Virus record (IMG/VR): IMGVR_UViG_3300047284_000266
Location: 1-37,754 of that record
From: a virus
Reading direction: 5' to 3' (one strand)
DNA: 37,754 nucleotides
The notes beneath the pieces were generated by a model. The model searched no databases, had not been told where the DNA came from, and saw only the letters and a program-made list of their open reading frames with translations. This document shows, in pieces, positions 3,331 through 32,123 of the stretch; the stretch's first letter is position 1, and every line of letters begins with the position of its first letter. The position numbers and the translations under genes are program-made.

Positions 3331-4413
3331 TCAACCGATTGCAGGTGCAGTCAGAGCAACAGGAGTTGCGCTAGCAGCAGCAAGGTCAAGAGGGAAGTTG
3401 TGAGCATTGCGCTCATGCATTACCTCAAAACCAAGGTTAGCACGGTTGAGGATGTCTGCCCAGGTGTTGATAACACGACCACTGTTGTCCAGCAGAGACT
3501 GGTTGAAGTTGAAACCGTTCAGGTTGAATGCCATGGTGCTAACACCAAGAGCAGCAAACCAGATACCAACTACAGGCCAAGCAGCAAGGAAGAAGTGAAG
3601 TGAGCGTGAGTTATTGAAGGACGCATATTGGAAAATAAGGCGACCGAAATAACCATGAGCAGCTACAATGTTGTAGGTCTCTTCTTCTTGTCCGAACTTG
3701 TATCCGTAGTTTTGAGATTCAGTTTCAGTTGTCTCACGAACGAGTGAAGACGTAACCAAACTTCCGTGCATAGCACTAAAGAGGCTGCCACCAAATACCC
3801 CAGCCACGCCGAGCATATGGAAAGGATGCATGAGAATGTTATGCTCTGCTTGGAAGACGAGCATGTAGTTAAACGTGCCCGAGATTCCGAGAGGCATTGC
3901 ATCACTGAAGGAACCTTGACCGAAAGGATAGACAAGGAACACTGCAGAAGCAGCGGCAACAGGAGCACTATAAGCAACGCAGATCCAAGGACGCATACCC
4001 AGACGGTAGGAAAGTTCCCACTCACGACCCATGTAGGCATAGATACCAATCAGAAAATGAAAGACGACCAATTGGAAAGGTCCACCATTATATAGCCACT
4101 CATCGAGTGACATTGCTTCCCAAATGGGGTAAAAGTGCAGTCCAATAGCATTAGACGATGGAACAACAGCACCAGAGATAATGTTGTTTCCGTACATTAG
4201 TGAACCAGCAACAGGTTCACGGATACCGTCGATATCGACAGGAGGAGCAGCAATGAAAGCAACAATGAAACAGATAGTAGCAGCAAGGAGGCAAGGAATC
4301 ATAAGGACTCCAAACCAACCGACATAAAGACGATTATCGGTTGATGTTACCCACTCACAGAACTGTTCCCATGTATTACTTCCACCGCGTTGTTGAGCGA
4401 TAGTAGCAGTCAT
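3331..4413 (-). CDS. psbA: Photosystem II reaction-centre protein D1
   Basis: D1 binds P680 chlorophyll, pheophytin, QB and the Mn cluster in the thylakoid membrane. The phage copy replaces photodamaged host D1 so that infection stays light-powered. All 360 residues align by eye with cyanobacterial D1 with a one-residue insertion near the N terminus. The donor tyrosine region ([14 protein letters not shown]), the ligands in MHPFHMLG, and the Mn ligands in [14 protein letters not shown] before the C-terminal processing site are all present. The residue at standard position 130 is Glu (MGREWELSY), as in high-light D1 forms. No intron or frameshift is visible. Start ATG 4413 has GGAG upstream. 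It has its own promoter region and terminator. Confidence 0.98.
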
Positions 4414-4557: not shown

Positions 4558-4716
4558 CCTTTTGGTTTTGTTCTGAATGACAATAAATTTGTCTTTCGGA
4601 AGTGTGCCTGCAACCTTAACTTCAAGTTCGTCGTCTCGATCCCAGGCACCAGATTCAATTAGTTCATGAAGGGCAATAGAAAATTGCCCCAGCATGTCAT
4701 TAGAATGATTCACCAT
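4546..4716 (-). CDS. Hypothetical protein, 56 aa
   Basis: Starts at ATG 4716, overlapping the end of hli by 7 nt (ATGGTGA), which suggests translational coupling. The first part looks helical (MLGQFSIALHELIESGAW), followed by a short beta-like part (DDELEVKVAGTLPKDKFIV). No family recognised. It is co-transcribed with hli from the promoter at 4951-4979 and ends inside the terminator hairpin. The overlap and clean reading frame support a real gene. Confidence 0.7.
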   Translation of the reverse strand: MVNHSNDMLGQFSIALHELIESGAWDRDDELEVKVAGTLPKDKFIVIQNKTKRGVQ

Positions 4717-4928
4717 ACGCCAGGAATCAGTTGCCCAGTAAGAGCATAAGCACCGATAGCTGCAATAACGCCAAGCATAGCCAGGCGACCATTGAGGCGT
4801 TCTGCTTTTTCATTGTGAGTTTCGTACATGTTGTTGTCCATAGCTTCTATAATCTCCTCAGAAATGTACATTTGTGGTTCTTTGGCAAACATATTCTGCT
4901 GGCCAAATTCATTTGTGGTTGTGGTCAT
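4710..4928 (-). CDS. hli: High-light-inducible protein (Hli), 72 aa
   Basis: Single-helix chlorophyll-binding-family protein of thylakoids that protects photosystems under excess light; phage copies accompany psbA. The family core is clear at the C terminus: an ExxNxR-type helix (EKAERLNGRLAMLG) followed by VIAAIGAYALTGQLIPGVW. The open frame extends upstream to 4979, but that extension overlaps the promoter at 4951-4979, so ATG 4928 (MTTTTNEF) is the start. No clear Shine-Dalgarno precedes it and the leader would be only about 16 nt. The first 30 residues are phage-specific and uncharacterised. Confidence 0.95.
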   Translation of the reverse strand: MTTTTNEFGQQNMFAKEPQMYISEEIIEAMDNNMYETHNEKAERLNGRLAMLGVIAAIGAYALTGQLIPGVW

Positions 4929-4950
4929 GTTAAATTTTATTACAGACCAT

Positions 4951-4979
4951 ATTATATAGGATTGCTTAAGATTTGTCAA
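4951..4979 (-). promoter_or_regulatory. Consensus sigma70-type promoter of hli (TTGACA-17-TATAAT)
   Basis: Perfect TTGACA (4974-4979), 17-nt spacer and perfect TATAAT (4951-4956), 22 nt before the hli start. The -35 lies in the last codons of the 84-aa gene. It should be strong and early and fixes the hli start at 4928. Confidence 0.9.
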
Positions 4980-5564: not shown

Positions 5565-5637
5565 TGCTCCTTGAGGGGATCGAACCCACCTGAGGCGAAT
5601 TATGAGTTCGCTGCTTTCACCAGATAGCTAAAGGAGC
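5565..5637 (-). tRNA. tRNA with anticodon CAT (Met, or Ile2 if lysidine-modified)
   Basis: Seven-bp acceptor GCTCCTT/AAGGAGC, anticodon stem GCGAA/TTCGC with loop CTCATAA, and T-arm with GGTTCGATCC. Base pair 1-72 is G-C, so it is not the initiator. A CAT anticodon can be elongator Met or AUA-reading Ile; the sequence alone does not decide. CCA is not encoded. Confidence 0.9.
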
Positions 5638-5642
5638 AAAAG

Positions 5643-5735
5643 TAGGGGCGGAGGGACTCGAACCCCCAACCGCACGGTAATCTGCCGTATACGAAAGGTA
5701 TAAGCTTTCCGCTCTGCCAATTGAGCTACACCCCC
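5643..5735 (-). tRNA. Unusual 93-nt tRNA, apparent anticodon TAT
   Basis: The acceptor GGGGGTG/CGCCCCT, D-arm GCTC/GAGC and T-arm around TTCGAGT are all sound. After the D-arm, GAAAG/CTTTC encloses a 7-base loop CTTATAC, giving anticodon TAT with T33. A 25-nt stretch follows before the T-stem and contains its own hairpin (ACGG, loop CAGATTA, CCGT). Class I D-arm features combined with a class II-length variable region are odd. The second hairpin is also 7-looped but lacks T33. Identity is uncertain. Confidence 0.7.
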
Positions 5736-5738
5736 ATA

Positions 5739-5810
<72 letters not shown>

Positions 5811-5816
5811 TTAAAT

Positions 5817-5987
5817 TCATAACTCTTGAGAGTTTAACATATATTCTACGGTATTGGCAATGTCGTTCATTGCTATTCGTAAATCTGGTTGTTGACCAGA
5901 TTCCATTTTAACAATGGGACGATGATCATCAGTAAGAGTCCACCTCCACTGATTAAGTTCTTTACAATACCAAAGATTAATTTTCAT
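5817..5987 (-). CDS. Hypothetical protein, 56 aa
   Basis: Starts at ATG 5987, overlapping the end of the 51-aa gene by 11 nt. It begins MKINLWYCKELNQWRW and has a short Trp/Tyr-rich strand pair, then a helix (DLRIAMNDIANTVEYML). No family recognised. It sits between tRNA genes in a string of very small proteins; the overlap with its neighbour and intact frame support expression. Confidence 0.65.
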   Translation of the reverse strand: MKINLWYCKELNQWRWTLTDDHRPIVKMESGQQPDLRIAMNDIANTVEYMLNSQEL

Positions 5988-6132
5988 GTTTAAATTGTTC
6001 CAGTTTTAACCAGTTGATAAGTGCATTGACTTCCATCCTTTTATCTTCAGTAAAGTCATTACCCTTACTAAACATATAAAAGTCTAGTGCTTCAATAGCA
6101 ACTTCTCGGTCTCTCTGTGAAATAAGCGACAT
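5977..6132 (-). CDS. Hypothetical protein, 51 aa
   Basis: Begins MSLISQRDREVAIEALDFYM. The start ATG 6132 has GAGG six bases upstream. A longer open frame would run back into the tRNA-Gly gene and is rejected. The protein is helical and charged (DFTEDKRMEVNALINWLKLEQF). No family recognised. It is probably coupled to the following 56-aa gene, which starts inside it. Confidence 0.65.
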   Translation of the reverse strand: MSLISQRDREVAIEALDFYMFSKGNDFTEDKRMEVNALINWLKLEQFKHEN

Positions 6133-6150
6133 AATAACCTCATATGAGGA

Positions 6151-6222
6151 AGCGGAGTATCGGATTCGAACCGACGACATCTAACTTGGAAGGATAGCGT
6201 TCTACCACTGAACTAACTCCGC
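6151..6222 (-). tRNA. tRNA-Gly (anticodon TCC)
   Basis: Acceptor GCGGAGT/ACTCCGC, D-arm GTTC/GAAC, anticodon loop CTTCCAA, T-arm with GGTTCGAATCC; 72 nt. The anticodon stem CTATC/GTTAG has one T-T mismatch. The identity agrees with the Gly-typical TTCCAA loop and D-arm. Confidence 0.92.
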
Positions 6223-6228
6223 AAATTT

Positions 6229-6300
6229 ACCTCTGTCTAGGAATCGAACCTAGTTTCCATGTGTGTTGTCCACCCGTCCTTACCAATAGACTACCAGAGG
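6229..6300 (-). tRNA. tRNA-like gene without a normal anticodon loop (possible pseudo-tRNA)
   Basis: It has tRNA length (72 nt), a T-arm CTAGG/CCTAG with TTCGATT, a weak D-arm (GTCT/GGAC) and a 6-of-7 acceptor (CCTCTGG/ACAGAGG, G-A mismatch at the base). The anticodon arm is poor. The best fit is GGGTG/CACAT with loop GACAACA, which lacks the universal T33 and would put CAA at the anticodon. It may be a decayed tRNA, a tRNA-like processing element, or a tRNA that folds differently from what I see. Confidence 0.55.
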
Positions 6301-6469
6301 TTGTGGTAGGTGTTGAAGACTTTACCTATGTCTCCACTCTTTACATTCACTCACCCACAGAATACTAGGGATGAGGAGCGGTTTTGGCACCTACGTTTGG
6401 CAGGAAAACACCAATCAGGTGACTTTCCCCCTCGATCTCCTTCTAGGCTATCTGCCTAGCGAGTATCGA
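6301..6469 (-). other. Gene-free, structured gap between tRNA-like and tRNA-Leu genes
   Basis: No credible reading frame. On the minus strand two stem systems are visible. One is GCTAGGC/GCCTAG around 6443-6459, extended outward by ATCGA/TCGAT pairing. The other is GGAA..CACC/GGTG..TTCC near 6400-6430. The heptamer GTAGGTG pairs with CACCTAC about 80 nt away. It could be a small non-coding RNA released with the tRNAs; this is inference. Confidence 0.45.
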
Positions 6470-6551
6470 TGTCGGTAAGAGGACTTGAACCTCCACGAAT
6501 TACTTCACTGGAACCTAAACCCAGCGCGTCTACCAATTCCGCCATACCGAC
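6470..6551 (-). tRNA. tRNA-Leu (anticodon TAG)
   Basis: Class II tRNA of 82 nt. Acceptor GTCGGTA/TACCGAC; Leu-type D-arm (GGCGGAATTGGTAGACGC); anticodon stem CTGGG/TCCAG with loop TTTAGGT; a long variable arm; T-arm with GGTTCAAGTCC. Reads CUA. Confidence 0.95.
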
Positions 6552-6594
6552 ATGTTGGGAGGAGGTCAATCCTCCCGAGCACATGCACGCCACC

Positions 6595-6602
6595 TATTTA
6601 GT
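6595..6602 (-). promoter_or_regulatory. ACTAAATA box upstream of tRNA-Leu
   Basis: Minus-strand ACTAAATA 44 nt before the tRNA-Leu 5' end. The same octamer precedes several protein genes in the window and resembles the T4 late box in its TAAATA part. Confidence 0.35.
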
Positions 6603-6630
6603 TATCGAGGAAATAGGAAACTCGGCGGGA

Positions 6631-6719
6631 GTTAAAAACCCCATCCGCACCAGGGCACATTTAACGTCTGTCCGAGACTCGGGATTGAAGGGGATCCTTC
6701 ACCGACCAGGGTTTTTAAC
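6631..6719 (-). repeat. 11-bp perfect inverted repeat enclosing two small hairpins
   Basis: GTTAAAAACCC (6631-6641) and GGGTTTTTAAC (6709-6719) are perfect reverse complements 67 nt apart. Between them on the minus strand lie GAAGG-ATCC-CCTTC and CCGAG-T-CTCGG. Together they can fold into a closed multi-stem RNA of about 89 nt. No open reading frame uses it. Candidate phage non-coding RNA. Confidence 0.55.
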
Positions 6720-6785
6720 GTGTCTCCATCACGGGCATATCGGGGATGACTCCACCAGGTTAAGTTTTAAGTCATTCCAGGACTA

Positions 6786-7073
6786 TCAAAAGGTGATAAT
6801 ATCATCACCCATTCCACCACGAATACCGCTACTAATATAGTTATAATCACCAAAATCAGCAGCAACATACGACGATAAATCAAATCTGATACTATCACCT
6901 TCGGAAGTTTTAGTCAGATTATATCTAGAACTACCTCTCCAATTTTTAATTGTGCTAATAGTCTCAGAAATGTTTCGAAGAAGATATGGATCTTCAGTCT
7001 CCGCACCTAGTTTAAGTGCAGTACGAAGAGCATCTTCAGCACGTTCTAGTTGATACCTTACGGTGTCAGTCAT
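6786..7073 (-). CDS. Hypothetical protein, 95 aa
   Basis: Begins MTDTVRYQLERAEDALR. ATG 7073 has AAAGGAG at good spacing and overlaps the end of the 82-aa gene by 8 nt; the longer frame to 7118 starts inside that gene and is rejected. The N-terminal half is helical with tetratricopeptide-like spacing; the C-terminal half is Gly/Ser/Tyr rich (YNYISSGIRGGMGDD). No family recognised. Confidence 0.65.
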   Translation of the reverse strand: MTDTVRYQLERAEDALRTALKLGAETEDPYLLRNISETISTIKNWRGSSRYNLTKTSEGDSIRFDLSSYVAADFGDYNYISSGIRGGMGDDIITF

Positions 7074-7314
7074 CGTTATCGTCTCCTTTAATATAGCATG
7101 AAACTCGATCTGGGTCAAGCCATTTAGTATAATCGAAATCTTCTATTGCAAGAAAGAATTGATCCTCGTTATCACAAAGATACATGTCTCTGTATCTTCC
7201 AGTGTAGGAATCAACTTTTTGAATCCTACAATCGGGTCTCCCATTAATCTCTAGTGTTCCGACTTGAACATAGCGGTAGGGAAACCGCTCCATAACAACA
7301 GTAGGTTTTTTCAT
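7066..7314 (-). CDS. Hypothetical protein, 82 aa
   Basis: Starts at ATG 7314, 19 nt after the tRNA-Arg 3' end. The protein looks like a small beta-rich domain (YRYVQVGTLEINGRPDCRIQKV) followed by an acidic tail ending DDNDD. No family recognised. No strong Shine-Dalgarno is visible. Its end overlaps the start of the 95-aa gene, suggesting coupling. Confidence 0.65.
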   Translation of the reverse strand: MKKPTVVMERFPYRYVQVGTLEINGRPDCRIQKVDSYTGRYRDMYLCDNEDQFFLAIEDFDYTKWLDPDRVSCYIKGDDNDD

Positions 7315-7333
7315 AATGAATAGTTCAATAAGG

Positions 7334-7407
7334 CGTCTCAGGAGGGACTTGAACCCCCGACCAACTGCTTAGAAGGCAGATGCTCTATCCAACTGAGCTA
7401 CTGAGAC
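7334..7407 (-). tRNA. tRNA-Arg (anticodon TCT)
   Basis: Acceptor GTCTCAG/CTGAGAC, D-arm GCTC/GAGC, anticodon loop CTTCTAA, T-arm with GGTTCAAGTCC; 74 nt with all arms paired. It reads AGA, a codon used often in the AT-rich phage genes here. Confidence 0.96.
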
Positions 7408-8468: not shown

Positions 8469-9662
8469 TTATGCGAAGATACGTCCCCATCCACTCTTAG
8501 GACCGTCAGGAAGCCACCTCTTCTGCAGGACGCTACGAGCATAGACAGCACCCTTCCCGTTGCTCACAGCACCCGTGTACCCATCGTTGAGGGATCCATA
8601 GGGATCATTGACCACATAATCGCCTGCAGGGGTCTTACCGATCACCACAACCATGTGCCCTCCTGTAGGGGCACTGAGGGATCCCCTGTGAAGGATTCCG
8701 ATCACCACAGGACGACCTGCAGCAAGTTCCCTATCGAGATCATCGAACCCTAGGGAATAGCTGAAGGATGACTTAACTCCATACGAAGCAAGCACTCTGG
8801 TTTGTACTAAGTGATCTGTAGTATCTCCAACAGCAAATACTTTTCTCACATATTCATCATCACCTTTAGGACCCTTAAGTGTTCCTGGTTTTAGATACTC
8901 AAGAACCATAGCACAAGCAGAACTATTGCAAGTTCTATTTGCATCTCTGTAGTTATCGGTCTGTGGGTAGAACGGAACATCAAGTACAGAGGACTTTGGT
9001 TTCTCTGGTTTGGTTCGATATATCTTCACCCATGCAGAAGTGTCTTCGTTTAAATCCAAAGTGGGGCAATGTGCTTTTGCTCTCTCTAAATCTTTTTCTA
9101 GTTGTTCTACAGCGGCAACGTGATTTGGATTCTTCTCATCGTAATACTTGAAGAAGTTATGTAAGTCTATAATTTTCATTGGTTTTTCTCCTACTAAAGG
9201 TTTTTTCCATAGATCTCCTTCTGCCTTTCTTCTACGAGCCAATCCTGCCTCTACTTTAGACCCAGGATTACGATATAAAAATAGAGCAGATGGAACTTGA
9301 TTCCATTCTTTATTTCTAAGTACTCTAGTTATAGTATCAAAATTTCTATTTCCATAGAAATGCGCCCCCAAGTTATACGCAAAACTTAGGAGCGCACCTT
9401 TTTGATTATCATTCATCTCACCCCAATAGGGAATCTTCTGAAGAGAAGGAAGAAATTTATTCTTCAAATCCGACACTAGAAGATTATCAGCATATTCTTG
9501 AGTGATAGTTTCACCAAGTTTAAAAGGTTTACCATCTTCTTTCCTGGTAGAACCCCAACCAATAGTGATCGGAAGTCCACCAGAAAGAGGATCGGGATAT
9601 GCTTTTAAATGGCATCCCTCAAATTCTTTAATTAATCTTACACCTTGTAATGGCAAAGTCAT
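8469..9662 (-). CDS. Endolysin: lysozyme fused to a C39-like peptidase, 397 aa
   Basis: Residues 1-155 are a phage-type lysozyme (GH24-like) that cleaves peptidoglycan glycan strands. IKEFEG carries the catalytic Glu15, and DPLSGGLPITIGWG supplies Asp24 and Thr33. A linker with coiled-coil character (about 160-200) leads to a papain-like C39-type domain. That domain has Cys245 in TCNSSACAMVLEYL, His336 in GGHMVVVIGKT and Asp353 in VVNDPYG. The second domain could cut peptide cross-links or a protein substrate. ATG 9662 overlaps the nrdB stop (ATGA), so it is coupled to nrdB. No signal peptide, so release would need a holin. Confidence 0.88.
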   Translation of the reverse strand: MTLPLQGVRLIKEFEGCHLKAYPDPLSGGLPITIGWGSTRKEDGKPFKLGETITQEYADNLLVSDLKNKFLPSLQKIPYWGEMNDNQKGALLSFAYNLGAHFYGNRNFDTITRVLRNKEWNQVPSALFLYRNPGSKVEAGLARRRKAEGDLWKKPLVGEKPMKIIDLHNFFKYYDEKNPNHVAAVEQLEKDLERAKAHCPTLDLNEDTSAWVKIYRTKPEKPKSSVLDVPFYPQTDNYRDANRTCNSSACAMVLEYLKPGTLKGPKGDDEYVRKVFAVGDTTDHLVQTRVLASYGVKSSFSYSLGFDDLDRELAAGRPVVIGILHRGSLSAPTGGHMVVVIGKTPAGDYVVNDPYGSLNDGYTGAVSNGKGAVYARSVLQKRWLPDGPKSGWGRIFA

Positions 9663-31694: not shown

Positions 31695-31727
31695 TTTGGT
31701 ATCACATTTTACAAAAGATTTTGAATA

Positions 31728-31735
31728 TATAAATT
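31728..31735 (+). promoter_or_regulatory. Late-promoter-like TATAAATT before the riboswitch
   Basis: Seven of eight match to TATAAATA on the plus strand. With T4 spacing, transcription would begin about at 31741, inside the 5' strand of the first aptamer. It might equally serve as a -10 element; no good -35 is visible. Confidence 0.45.
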
Positions 31736-31736
31736 A

Positions 31737-31776
31737 CGTTCATCTCTATGAGACGGAAGTAAGCCGACGCGGAACG
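31737..31776 (+). promoter_or_regulatory. Glutamine-riboswitch-like aptamer, copy 1
   Basis: CGTTC (31737-31741) pairs with GAACG (31772-31776). Inside is a TCTC/GAGA stem with loop TAT, then CGGAAGTAAG and GCCGAC. The CGTTCA ... GGAAGTA ... GGAACG order is the signature of the glutamine-binding glnA RNA family of cyanobacteria and of the related Downstream-peptide RNA. Copy 2 follows three bases later. Confidence 0.8.
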
Positions 31777-31779
31777 GAT

Positions 31780-31820
31780 CGTTCATCCCAATGGGACGCA
31801 AACGCCGACTGAAGGAACGC
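31780..31820 (+). promoter_or_regulatory. Glutamine-riboswitch-like aptamer, copy 2
   Basis: CGTTC (31780-31784) pairs with GAACG (31815-31819), with an inner TCCC/GGGA stem and loop AAT, then GACGCAAA, GCCGAC and GAAGGAACGC. It shares CGTTCATC, GGAACG, GCCGAC and overall 40-nt size with copy 1. The AAGGAG of the next gene is about 20 nt downstream, so the pair could control translation or transcription of the 52-aa gene. Confidence 0.82.
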
Positions 31821-31851
31821 TCTTTAACTTAAAAAACTAAGGAGAATCCCT

Positions 31852-32010
31852 ATGTCAATCGCAACCTATCGTGGGTGCAAGTACAATACTGACACCCCAA
31901 AAGAAGAATATCAGAAGTGGTATTCCCAAACACATGCACCAGCACATCCTAATAATGTTTATCGTGGTACTGCATATCGTCCTTGCAACAACTCGGAGGT
32001 ATCAAAGTGA
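31852..32010 (+). CDS. DUF4278-like small protein under the riboswitch pair, 52 aa
   Basis: Begins MSIATYRGCKYNTD and later has VYRGTAYRP, the two YRG boxes typical of the cyanobacterial DUF4278 family as I remember it. ATG 31852 follows AAGGAG. In marine picocyanobacteria, Downstream-peptide RNAs precede short genes such as this, so expression is probably tied to glutamine, that is, nitrogen state. The molecular role is unknown. The end overlaps the next start (GTGA) and has GGAGG for that gene. Confidence 0.8.
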   Translation: MSIATYRGCKYNTDTPKEEYQKWYSQTHAPAHPNNVYRGTAYRPCNNSEVSK

Positions 32011-32093
32011 ACTGGTTAAATGTTATCCGCAAACAAATTATCAAACAAAGAAAACTCCAAGAAGCACAATACTACATTGCTACACTTGGATAA
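32007..32093 (+). CDS. Basic micropeptide, 28 aa, GTG start
   Basis: The GTG at 32007 overlaps the TGA of the 52-aa gene, with GGAGG nine bases upstream. The peptide is one amphipathic basic helix (WLNVIRKQIIKQRKLQEAQY). The strong ribosome binding site and coupling support translation. Followed directly by a terminator. No family recognised. Confidence 0.6.
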   Translation: MNWLNVIRKQIIKQRKLQEAQYYIATLG

Positions 32094-32096
32094 AAC

Positions 32097-32123
32097 AAAG
32101 GGGGCATTACGCCCCCATTTTTT
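32097..32123. terminator. Convergent terminator between the plus island and regA
   Basis: GGGGGC, loop ATTAC, GCCCCC, then A and six T on the plus strand; the minus-strand side also ends in T-rich sequence. It can serve both the plus-strand island and the regA end. Confidence 0.88.

Follow-up and report, generated by a model that had tools for sequence, protein, structure and literature searches.

In cyanobacteria, glutamine riboswitches of types I and II switch DUF4278-type genes ON (PMC6316151), and a further ON-switch precedent has been described there (PMC6698751); in the structure of the glutamine-II RNA a long-range pair, C19:G41, adjoins the ligand site (PMC6698751). Earlier work has noted glutamine riboswitches in phages, both cyanophages (PMC9964418, PMC9602691) and marine myophages (PMC9004378), and Weinberg 2010 (PMC2864571) described tandem glnA RNAs. 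In S-CREM1 a glnA element, annotated as one glnA match (99 nt, 44 bits), lies between an hsp20 gene and regA (PMC9964418).

The stretch analysed here (the window, 37,754 nt of an IMG/VR viral record) carries T4-like cyanophage genes. One region is syntenic with S-CREM1 in the order hsp20 gene, glnA element, small DUF4278-like gene, RegA and clamp loader; the alignment to the S-CREM1 homologue covers 95% of the query (E 1e-28). Here positions 31737–31820 read CGTTCATCTCTATGAGACGGAAGTAAGCCGACGCGGAACG GAT CGTTCATCCCAATGGGACGCAAACGCCGACTGAAGGAACG C. A sequence-only reading had taken this for two adjacent glutamine-type aptamers in a phage. The repeat it described is accurate in its blocks and their positions (shared blocks, two 4-bp hairpins with 3-base loops, GCCGAC and GGAACG), as is the gap of three bases (GAT) between the copies, and the family assignment is borne out by the RF01739 scores and by related phage elements. 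Comparison with the Rfam covariance models agrees with it in part. RF01739 (Glutamine) matches both copies, at 35.0 bits for copy 2 (31778–31823, E 5e-6), exactly equal to the gathering score of 35, and at 23.0 bits for copy 1 (31737–31776, E 0.01), below that score; RF01704 (Glutamine-II) gives 17.3 bits on copy 2 vs a cut-off of 33, too low, which rules out Glutamine-II membership of the window element. A chance repeat was likewise ruled out, by homologues and by covariation. Related sequence is present in 456 phage-genome records, mostly of Synechococcus and Prochlorococcus phages. Many of these match as two pieces with a span of more than 200 nt, and we therefore followed up the composite architecture. 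The parts of the window element and its operon are:

31728–31734, plus strand: TATAAAT box, T4-late or −10-like promoter candidate, read from the sequence
31737–31741, plus strand: C1 (CGTTC), 5′ strand of outer P1, partner G2 at 31815–31819, from compensatory changes and pairing probability
31743–31753, plus strand: P2 hairpin TCTCTATGAGA, slot 1, with covariation at all five pairs
31754–31761, plus strand: CGGAAGTA, junction strand with ligand-site G31756 (pairs with C31820) and the AGUA half of loop E
31762–31769, plus strand: P3 5′ strand AGCCGACG, partner 31803–31810, six of eight pairs standard and two A.C
31772–31776, plus strand: G1 (GAACG), 5′ strand of the joining helix P1′, partner C2, from compensatory CAACG:CGTTG
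31777–31779, plus strand: GAT, loop of the joining hairpin
31780–31784, plus strand: C2 (CGTTC), 3′ strand of the joining helix P1′, on the same basis as G1
31786–31796, plus strand: P2′ hairpin TCCCAATGGGA, slot 2
31797–31802, plus strand: CGCAAA, inner junction strand, in which C31799 pairs with G31777 after G1
31803–31810, plus strand: P3 3′ strand CGCCGACT
31810–31814, plus strand: TGAAG, with the GAA half of loop E
31815–31820, plus strand: G2 (GAACG), which closes outer P1, plus C31820 of the ligand-site pair
31820–31844, plus strand: candidate expression platform, CTCTTTA (31820–31826) with TAAGGAG (31838–31844), from the minimum-energy fold of 31737–31855
31852–32010, plus strand: downstream gene, 52 aa, DUF4278-like, from Pfam and PHROG
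32007–32093, plus strand: second small ORF, GTG start, 28 aa, VNWLNVIRKQIIKQ..., overlapping the DUF4278 stop, from PHROG 545
32100–32116, plus strand: intrinsic terminator GGGGGCATTACGCCCCC with T-run, end of the unit

With the TATAAAT box directly upstream, transcription would begin at roughly the first aptamer base. A consensus promoter scan gave TTTACA-16-TAAATT at 31708–31735 (9/12), which is not above chance, and TATAAT occurs at most 20 nt upstream in 151 of 350 relatives. Elsewhere in the window, all on the minus strand, we note a wcaG RNA (RF01761, 59.5 bits) at 6579–6681 within a cluster of six tRNA matches (5565–7407) and, on inspection of the translations by eye, photosystem II D1 (psbA) at 3331–4413 and a high-light-inducible-like protein at 4710–4979; psbA and high-light-inducible-like genes are auxiliary genes typical of cyanophages.

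We parsed 350 distinct related elements and asked which strands pair. The strands follow in the order C1, G1, C2, G2 and could pair crosswise (C1:G2 with G1:C2) or within copies (C1:G1 with C2:G2). These P1 strands are nearly invariant, and the strand test consists of 11 of the 350 elements, perhaps three events; all 11 variants restore crossed pairing and break within-copy pairing. The combination G1 CAACG with C2 CGTTG is seen by itself in eight and together with C1 CGTTT and G2 AAACG in two; one (L285) has C1 CGTTT with G2 AAACG alone. The compensatory C1:G2 form CGTTT:AAACG is thus found in L285, L374 and L413, and the G1:C2 form CAACG:CGTTG in ten parsed elements. We aligned 40 cores with their ORFs excised. 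Under the crossed model 97.9% of cells are paired; covariation is 0.264, vs 0.073 ± 0.008 in shuffled alignments (0/500) and no more than 0.051 after sliding. Both P1 helices of the within-copy model are missing their last pair in 10 of the 40 rows, whereas the crossed model drops none. A second alignment (34 rows, long-P3 class) gives 92.1% paired under the crossed model and a covariation of 0.396 vs 0.107 shuffled. Permutation and Fisher values throughout count related phages as independent, and p-values are indicative only.

The ligand site points the same way. The long-range pair after GAACG, a feature of RF01739, is present in the crossed fold of 349 of 350 elements, where the third base of CG[C/G]AAGTA and the base after G2 are C:G in 249, G:C in 100 and CA in one. 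At the inner junction the equivalent pair (third base of CG[C/G]AAA with the base after G1) is C:G in 341 and G:C in four (n=350). Taken within copies, the bases match in 72% and 71% of elements only. The window has crossed pairs G31756:C31820 and C31799:G31777, where within-copy pairs would be G.G (copy 1) and C.C (copy 2). Its predicted pairing probabilities are 0.78 for C1:G2, 0.67 for G1:C2 and 0.02 for C1:G1. Folding over the 102 hairpin-type elements gives 0.87 for C1:G2 vs 0.03 for C1:G1, and over 60 gene-type elements with ORF1 present 0.84 (C1:G2), 0.67 (G1:C2) and 0.05 (C1:G1).

P3 and loop E are divided between the copies. AGUA is in copy 1 only and GAA in copy 2 only, so either copy alone is without loop E; the RF01739 arrangement, AGUA opposite GAA adjoining P3, appears when the copies are combined, and the P1/P2/P3 junction of that family forms only with strands from both. 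In nearly all inserted forms the strands following AGUA (copy 1) and preceding GAA (copy 2) are in-register complements, and P3 covariation spans inserts of 44–281 nt. P3 is either 5 bp long (AGTCG/CGACT) or 8 bp long (AGCCGACx/x′GCCGACT), and in the longer version x:x′ is TA in 150, GC in 27, AT in 22 and TG in two (n=201); L671 has AATCG/CGATT, a compensated double change. Over 37 unique haplotypes P3 pairing is 5.59/8 vs 4.91 with shuffled partners (0/5000), and part of the conservation of P2′ and of the P3 3′ strand could be coding (C-terminal W-D-A-N-D or D-A-K-A-D). The putative window P3, with its two A.C mismatches, rests on comparison: nearest-neighbour folding gives it a probability of about 0.002, that is, does not predict it.

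Sequence comparison thus establishes the crossed pairing and the division of P3 and loop E, and we consider it very improbable that the locus holds two independent tandem glutamine aptamers, each self-closing, that make a steep digital switch, as had been suggested. Each copy does match part of RF01739 (35.0 and 23.0 bits), true tandems exist in other viruses (L071, L051), and tandem glnA RNAs are on record (Weinberg 2010, PMC2864571). However, a tandem unit has its own P1, P3 and loop E, and neither copy in the window has a P3 hairpin or complete loop E of its own. All informative P1 variants break the within-copy pairs, C1:G1 has a probability of 0.02, the within-copy ligand-site pairs at 72% and 71% are found in neither copy of the window, and in gene-bearing relatives the copies are about 150–200 nt apart and still complementary. 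The claim of two adjacent aptamers accordingly does not stand. The joining helix GAACG-GAT-CGTTC, proposed with it as a competitor of each aptamer, is real; because crossed pairing holds and neither copy is complete, it is instead part of the conserved fold.

We consider it likely that the locus encodes one composite glutamine-riboswitch RNA, with crossed strands, a shared P3, slots for genes and, as proposed below, switching by glutamine. With C1:G2 and G1:C2 paired crosswise and P3 linking copy 1 to copy 2, the RNA would form two glutamine-type three-way junctions at opposite ends of a single shared P3, in a pseudo-symmetric arrangement: an outer junction with loop E and an inner one, closed by the joining hairpin, without it. 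The P2-type hairpin of each junction is a slot, filled by a short loop (both slots of the window) or by a whole gene (relatives).

Among the 350 elements neither slot is occupied in 102 (the window type), slot 2 only in 163, slot 1 only in 29 and both in 54; in two the slot-2 insert is unparsed. ORF0 (slot 1) is found in 84 of the 350 and ORF1 (slot 2) in 217, and these embedded genes are complete, with about 50–70 codons. Both window slots are 4-bp hairpins with 3-base loops and no gene, and the loop-E TGA is still kept. The stems that enclose the genes covary (for example UCUCAUG:CAUGAGA, UCUUAUG:CAUAAGA and UCCUAUG:CAUAGGA), with 4.78/5 pairs in P2′ around ORF1 vs 3.85 shuffled and 4.43 pairs in P2 around ORF0 vs 4.13 shuffled (0/3000 as high in each). 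The start codons lie 3–5 nt past the conserved CGTTCA, within or at the edge of the P2-type stem, and the stop codons in loop E or in the P2 3′ strand. The ORF1 stop is exactly the loop-E T(G/A)A in 211 of 217, and that of ORF0 is often in the opposite loop-E strand, AAGUAA. A joining-hairpin loop GAG, which creates GGAG, occurs in 92 of 217 gene-type vs none of 131 hairpin-type elements; since it is seen only in gene-type elements, GGAG is probably the ribosome site (Shine-Dalgarno) of ORF1. In L152 a three-unit chain of the same module (hairpin, gene, hairpin) runs from 6504 on the plus strand, which suggests that the scaffold is extendable.

Substitution patterns in the embedded genes indicate that ORF0 and ORF1 are real proteins under purifying selection (ORF0 pN/pS 0.24, pN<pS in 32/32 independent pairs; ORF1 pN/pS 0.28, pN<pS in 78/78). 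They belong to PHROG families 504, 6471 and 13397, all of unknown function, and two cysteines are invariant in each of the two main families. A PHROG-13397-type sequence (MLSLALIFFSH...) occupies slot 1 in L128 and slot 2 in L006 and L023. Pfam and NCBIfam searches of the embedded proteins gave no usable function, and an AlphaFold2 model of ORF1 (three helices, pLDDT 79, pTM 0.56) was uninformative on this point. Relatives of ORF1 occur in 312 phage records and those of ORF0 in 62. ORF1 is annotated as an ordinary gene (T4-GC 430) in GenBank phages, namely PSSM7_205 of P-SSM7, SSSM7_289 of S-SSM7 and SSM1_203 of S-SM1; Syn9 has both embedded genes (gp196 and gp197, the latter an ORF1 relative), followed by gp198.

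Downstream of the element, the 52-aa ORF had been called DUF4278-like, which is fair: PF14105 matches at E 0.0019 (19.0 bits, below the gathering score of 25.3) and PHROG 5049 at E 1.5e-9. Such a gene is the usual neighbour of related elements. The 28-aa ORF matches PHROG 545 (E 5e-5, with its first residue entered as M), and a start related to it lies directly downstream of the riboswitch in 86 of 350 elements. By eye this ORF (VNWLNVIRKQIIKQRKLQEAQYYIATLG) resembles the GS-inactivating factor IF7, and it could form with the DUF4278 protein a split IF17-like pair. In the minimum-energy fold of the window the predicted CTCTTTA:TAAGGAG hairpin can hide the Shine-Dalgarno sequence of the DUF4278-like gene; it overlaps the aptamer by one base only (C31820). 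A hairpin ACGGATCC..CGAAAG..GAGAAGGTTAA recurs between G2 and the gene behind it in at least seven elements (L296, L300, L375, L398, L439, L458 and L085), and also in Syn9 (L686). Many relatives have a Shine-Dalgarno region, CTT(T/C)AGG, that is able to pair with the loop-E strand T(A/G)AAG; CTTCAGG accompanies a loop-E TGA in 22 of 74 cases and a TAA in 0 of 56.

This pairing potential, together with short ORFs whose stop is fixed in loop E, would suit embedded genes that are leader peptides, such that their translation and not glutamine binding controls the downstream gene in an attenuation-like manner. We regard this as quite unlikely, since ORF0 and ORF1 are under protein-level purifying selection along their length, carry two conserved cysteines and fall into several PHROG families (504, 6471, 13397), and the window and 101 other elements have a plain hairpin in place of a gene.

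Most elements were retrieved by sequence patterns, and two protein-selected sets served as a control: 80 loci that lie upstream of DUF4278-like genes picked on protein similarity alone, and 80 ORF1-selected viral loci. In the latter, ORF1 lies between the two halves of the element in 80 of 80. Three architectures are found at one place upstream of DUF4278-like genes: a canonical single glnA aptamer (12 of the 80 DUF4278-selected loci, for example L224), the window type, and the ORF-inserted type, in which a complete small ORF separates the two apparent copies. A host origin of the composite was also considered. A loose pattern run over genome contigs gave 117 stretches, almost all of them chance, with one full element (L560), a two-gene form on a metagenome-assembled contig of an uncultured Prochlorococcus. 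A search of 300 host-family genomes gave one element (L674, on genome G001 contig 36, the same site as L560) and one chance match. The L560 contig may itself be viral, perhaps a phage contig binned with its host.

The same architectures bear on whether the RNA could be a structural mRNA clamp, for 5′-end protection or translational coupling, derived from a glutamine aptamer that no longer binds its ligand. Transcripts probably begin at C1, the helices bracket whole genes, and an ORF1 stop in loop E is ideally placed for translational coupling. Against this, the aptamer core and ligand-site pair are kept (349/350), sister phages have canonical glutamine aptamers at this position ahead of the same gene family, and the downstream gene is of a class under riboswitch control in the hosts (PMC6316151). 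We thus think a clamp unlikely, if less so than leader peptides.

Returning to the composite riboswitch, we infer that it binds glutamine and controls inner and downstream genes reciprocally. High glutamine would stabilise the crossed fold, which would bury the Shine-Dalgarno sequence and start codon of any embedded gene and free the Shine-Dalgarno sequence of the DUF4278-like gene downstream; the element would then be an ON switch, like those of cyanobacteria. Ribosomes on an embedded gene would pass through P3 into loop E and keep the aptamer open. Since the fold would bury the nested start and ribosome site, and translation would keep that fold open, opposite responses are expected for the nested and the downstream genes. 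In the window phage the switch would act on the DUF4278-like operon only, since both slots are empty. Cooperativity between the two junctions is possible because they share P3, a modified form of the cooperative switch first suggested; a second binding site at the inner junction is a guess, as that junction is without loop E. In its full form the proposal is a class of phage riboswitches in which two glutamine sites share one helix pseudo-symmetrically and the hairpin loops are slots for entire genes; the ligand would turn nested genes off and the downstream gene on, and nested translation would hold the aptamer open. This form is tentative, and our doubts slightly outweigh our confidence.

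Riboswitches are usually described as leaders before genes. In hundreds of T4-like cyanophages, among them the laboratory phage Syn9, this aptamer encloses entire genes whose start and stop codons form part of its helices; the genes in the slots, their coding status and these codon positions are shown by comparative analysis. The arrangement could let one RNA switch control inner and downstream genes oppositely. If glutamine binding is confirmed, phage nitrogen sensing would become directly testable, the RNA would offer a split aptamer of natural origin whose long-range core covaries, and several conserved orphan phage proteins (T4-GC 430, phrog_504, phrog_6471) could be explained as belonging to glutamine-controlled operons.

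Although the riboswitch family is known, we did not find the crossed double junction or genes within its loops reported: the searchable literature, which omitted most subscription journals, held no gene-split glutamine riboswitch or crossed double junction. The S-CREM1 element has the same locus and architecture (hairpin type) as the window, and the accessible part of its report describes a glnA cis-regulatory RNA only, with composite structure and gene-bearing forms unmentioned (PMC9964418). Some of the tandem glnA RNAs of Weinberg 2010 may be composite elements. At its cut-offs Rfam misses most examples tested, among them seven phage isolates (S-SM1, P-SSM7, S-SSM7, S-TIM5, DSL-LC03, S-SRM01 and Bellamy), yet finds true tandems and single aptamers. 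Genuine tandem glnA RNAs, each unit with its own P3 and loop E, lie at 8945–9060 on the minus strand of L071 (63 and 58 bits) and at 3413–3524 on the plus strand of L051 (61 and 48 bits), the latter with a freshwater-2 RNA match at 3748–3835.

The window element resembles such tandem glnA, or glycine, riboswitches in its adjacent binding-site-like units; unlike them, it has crossed strands, a shared P3 and no autonomous unit. With RF01704 (Downstream-peptide) it shares the CGUUCA...CGCA...GGAACG core, a C19:G41-type pair and small downstream ORFs, but its third helix is the P3 common to both junctions, whereas that of RF01704 is a pseudoknotted P2 3′ of GAACG (PMC6698751). With RF01739 (glnA, type I) it shares the CGUUCA / ACGGAAGUA / GAAGGAACG core, the P1-P2-P3 junction with loop E, the long-range pair at the ligand site and a DUF4278-type gene downstream. 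In contrast to RF01739, an insert opens the P3 loop and makes a second junction (joining hairpin, P2′ and inner core), so that each apparent copy gives half of each junction, and P2 and P2′ are able to hold whole genes.
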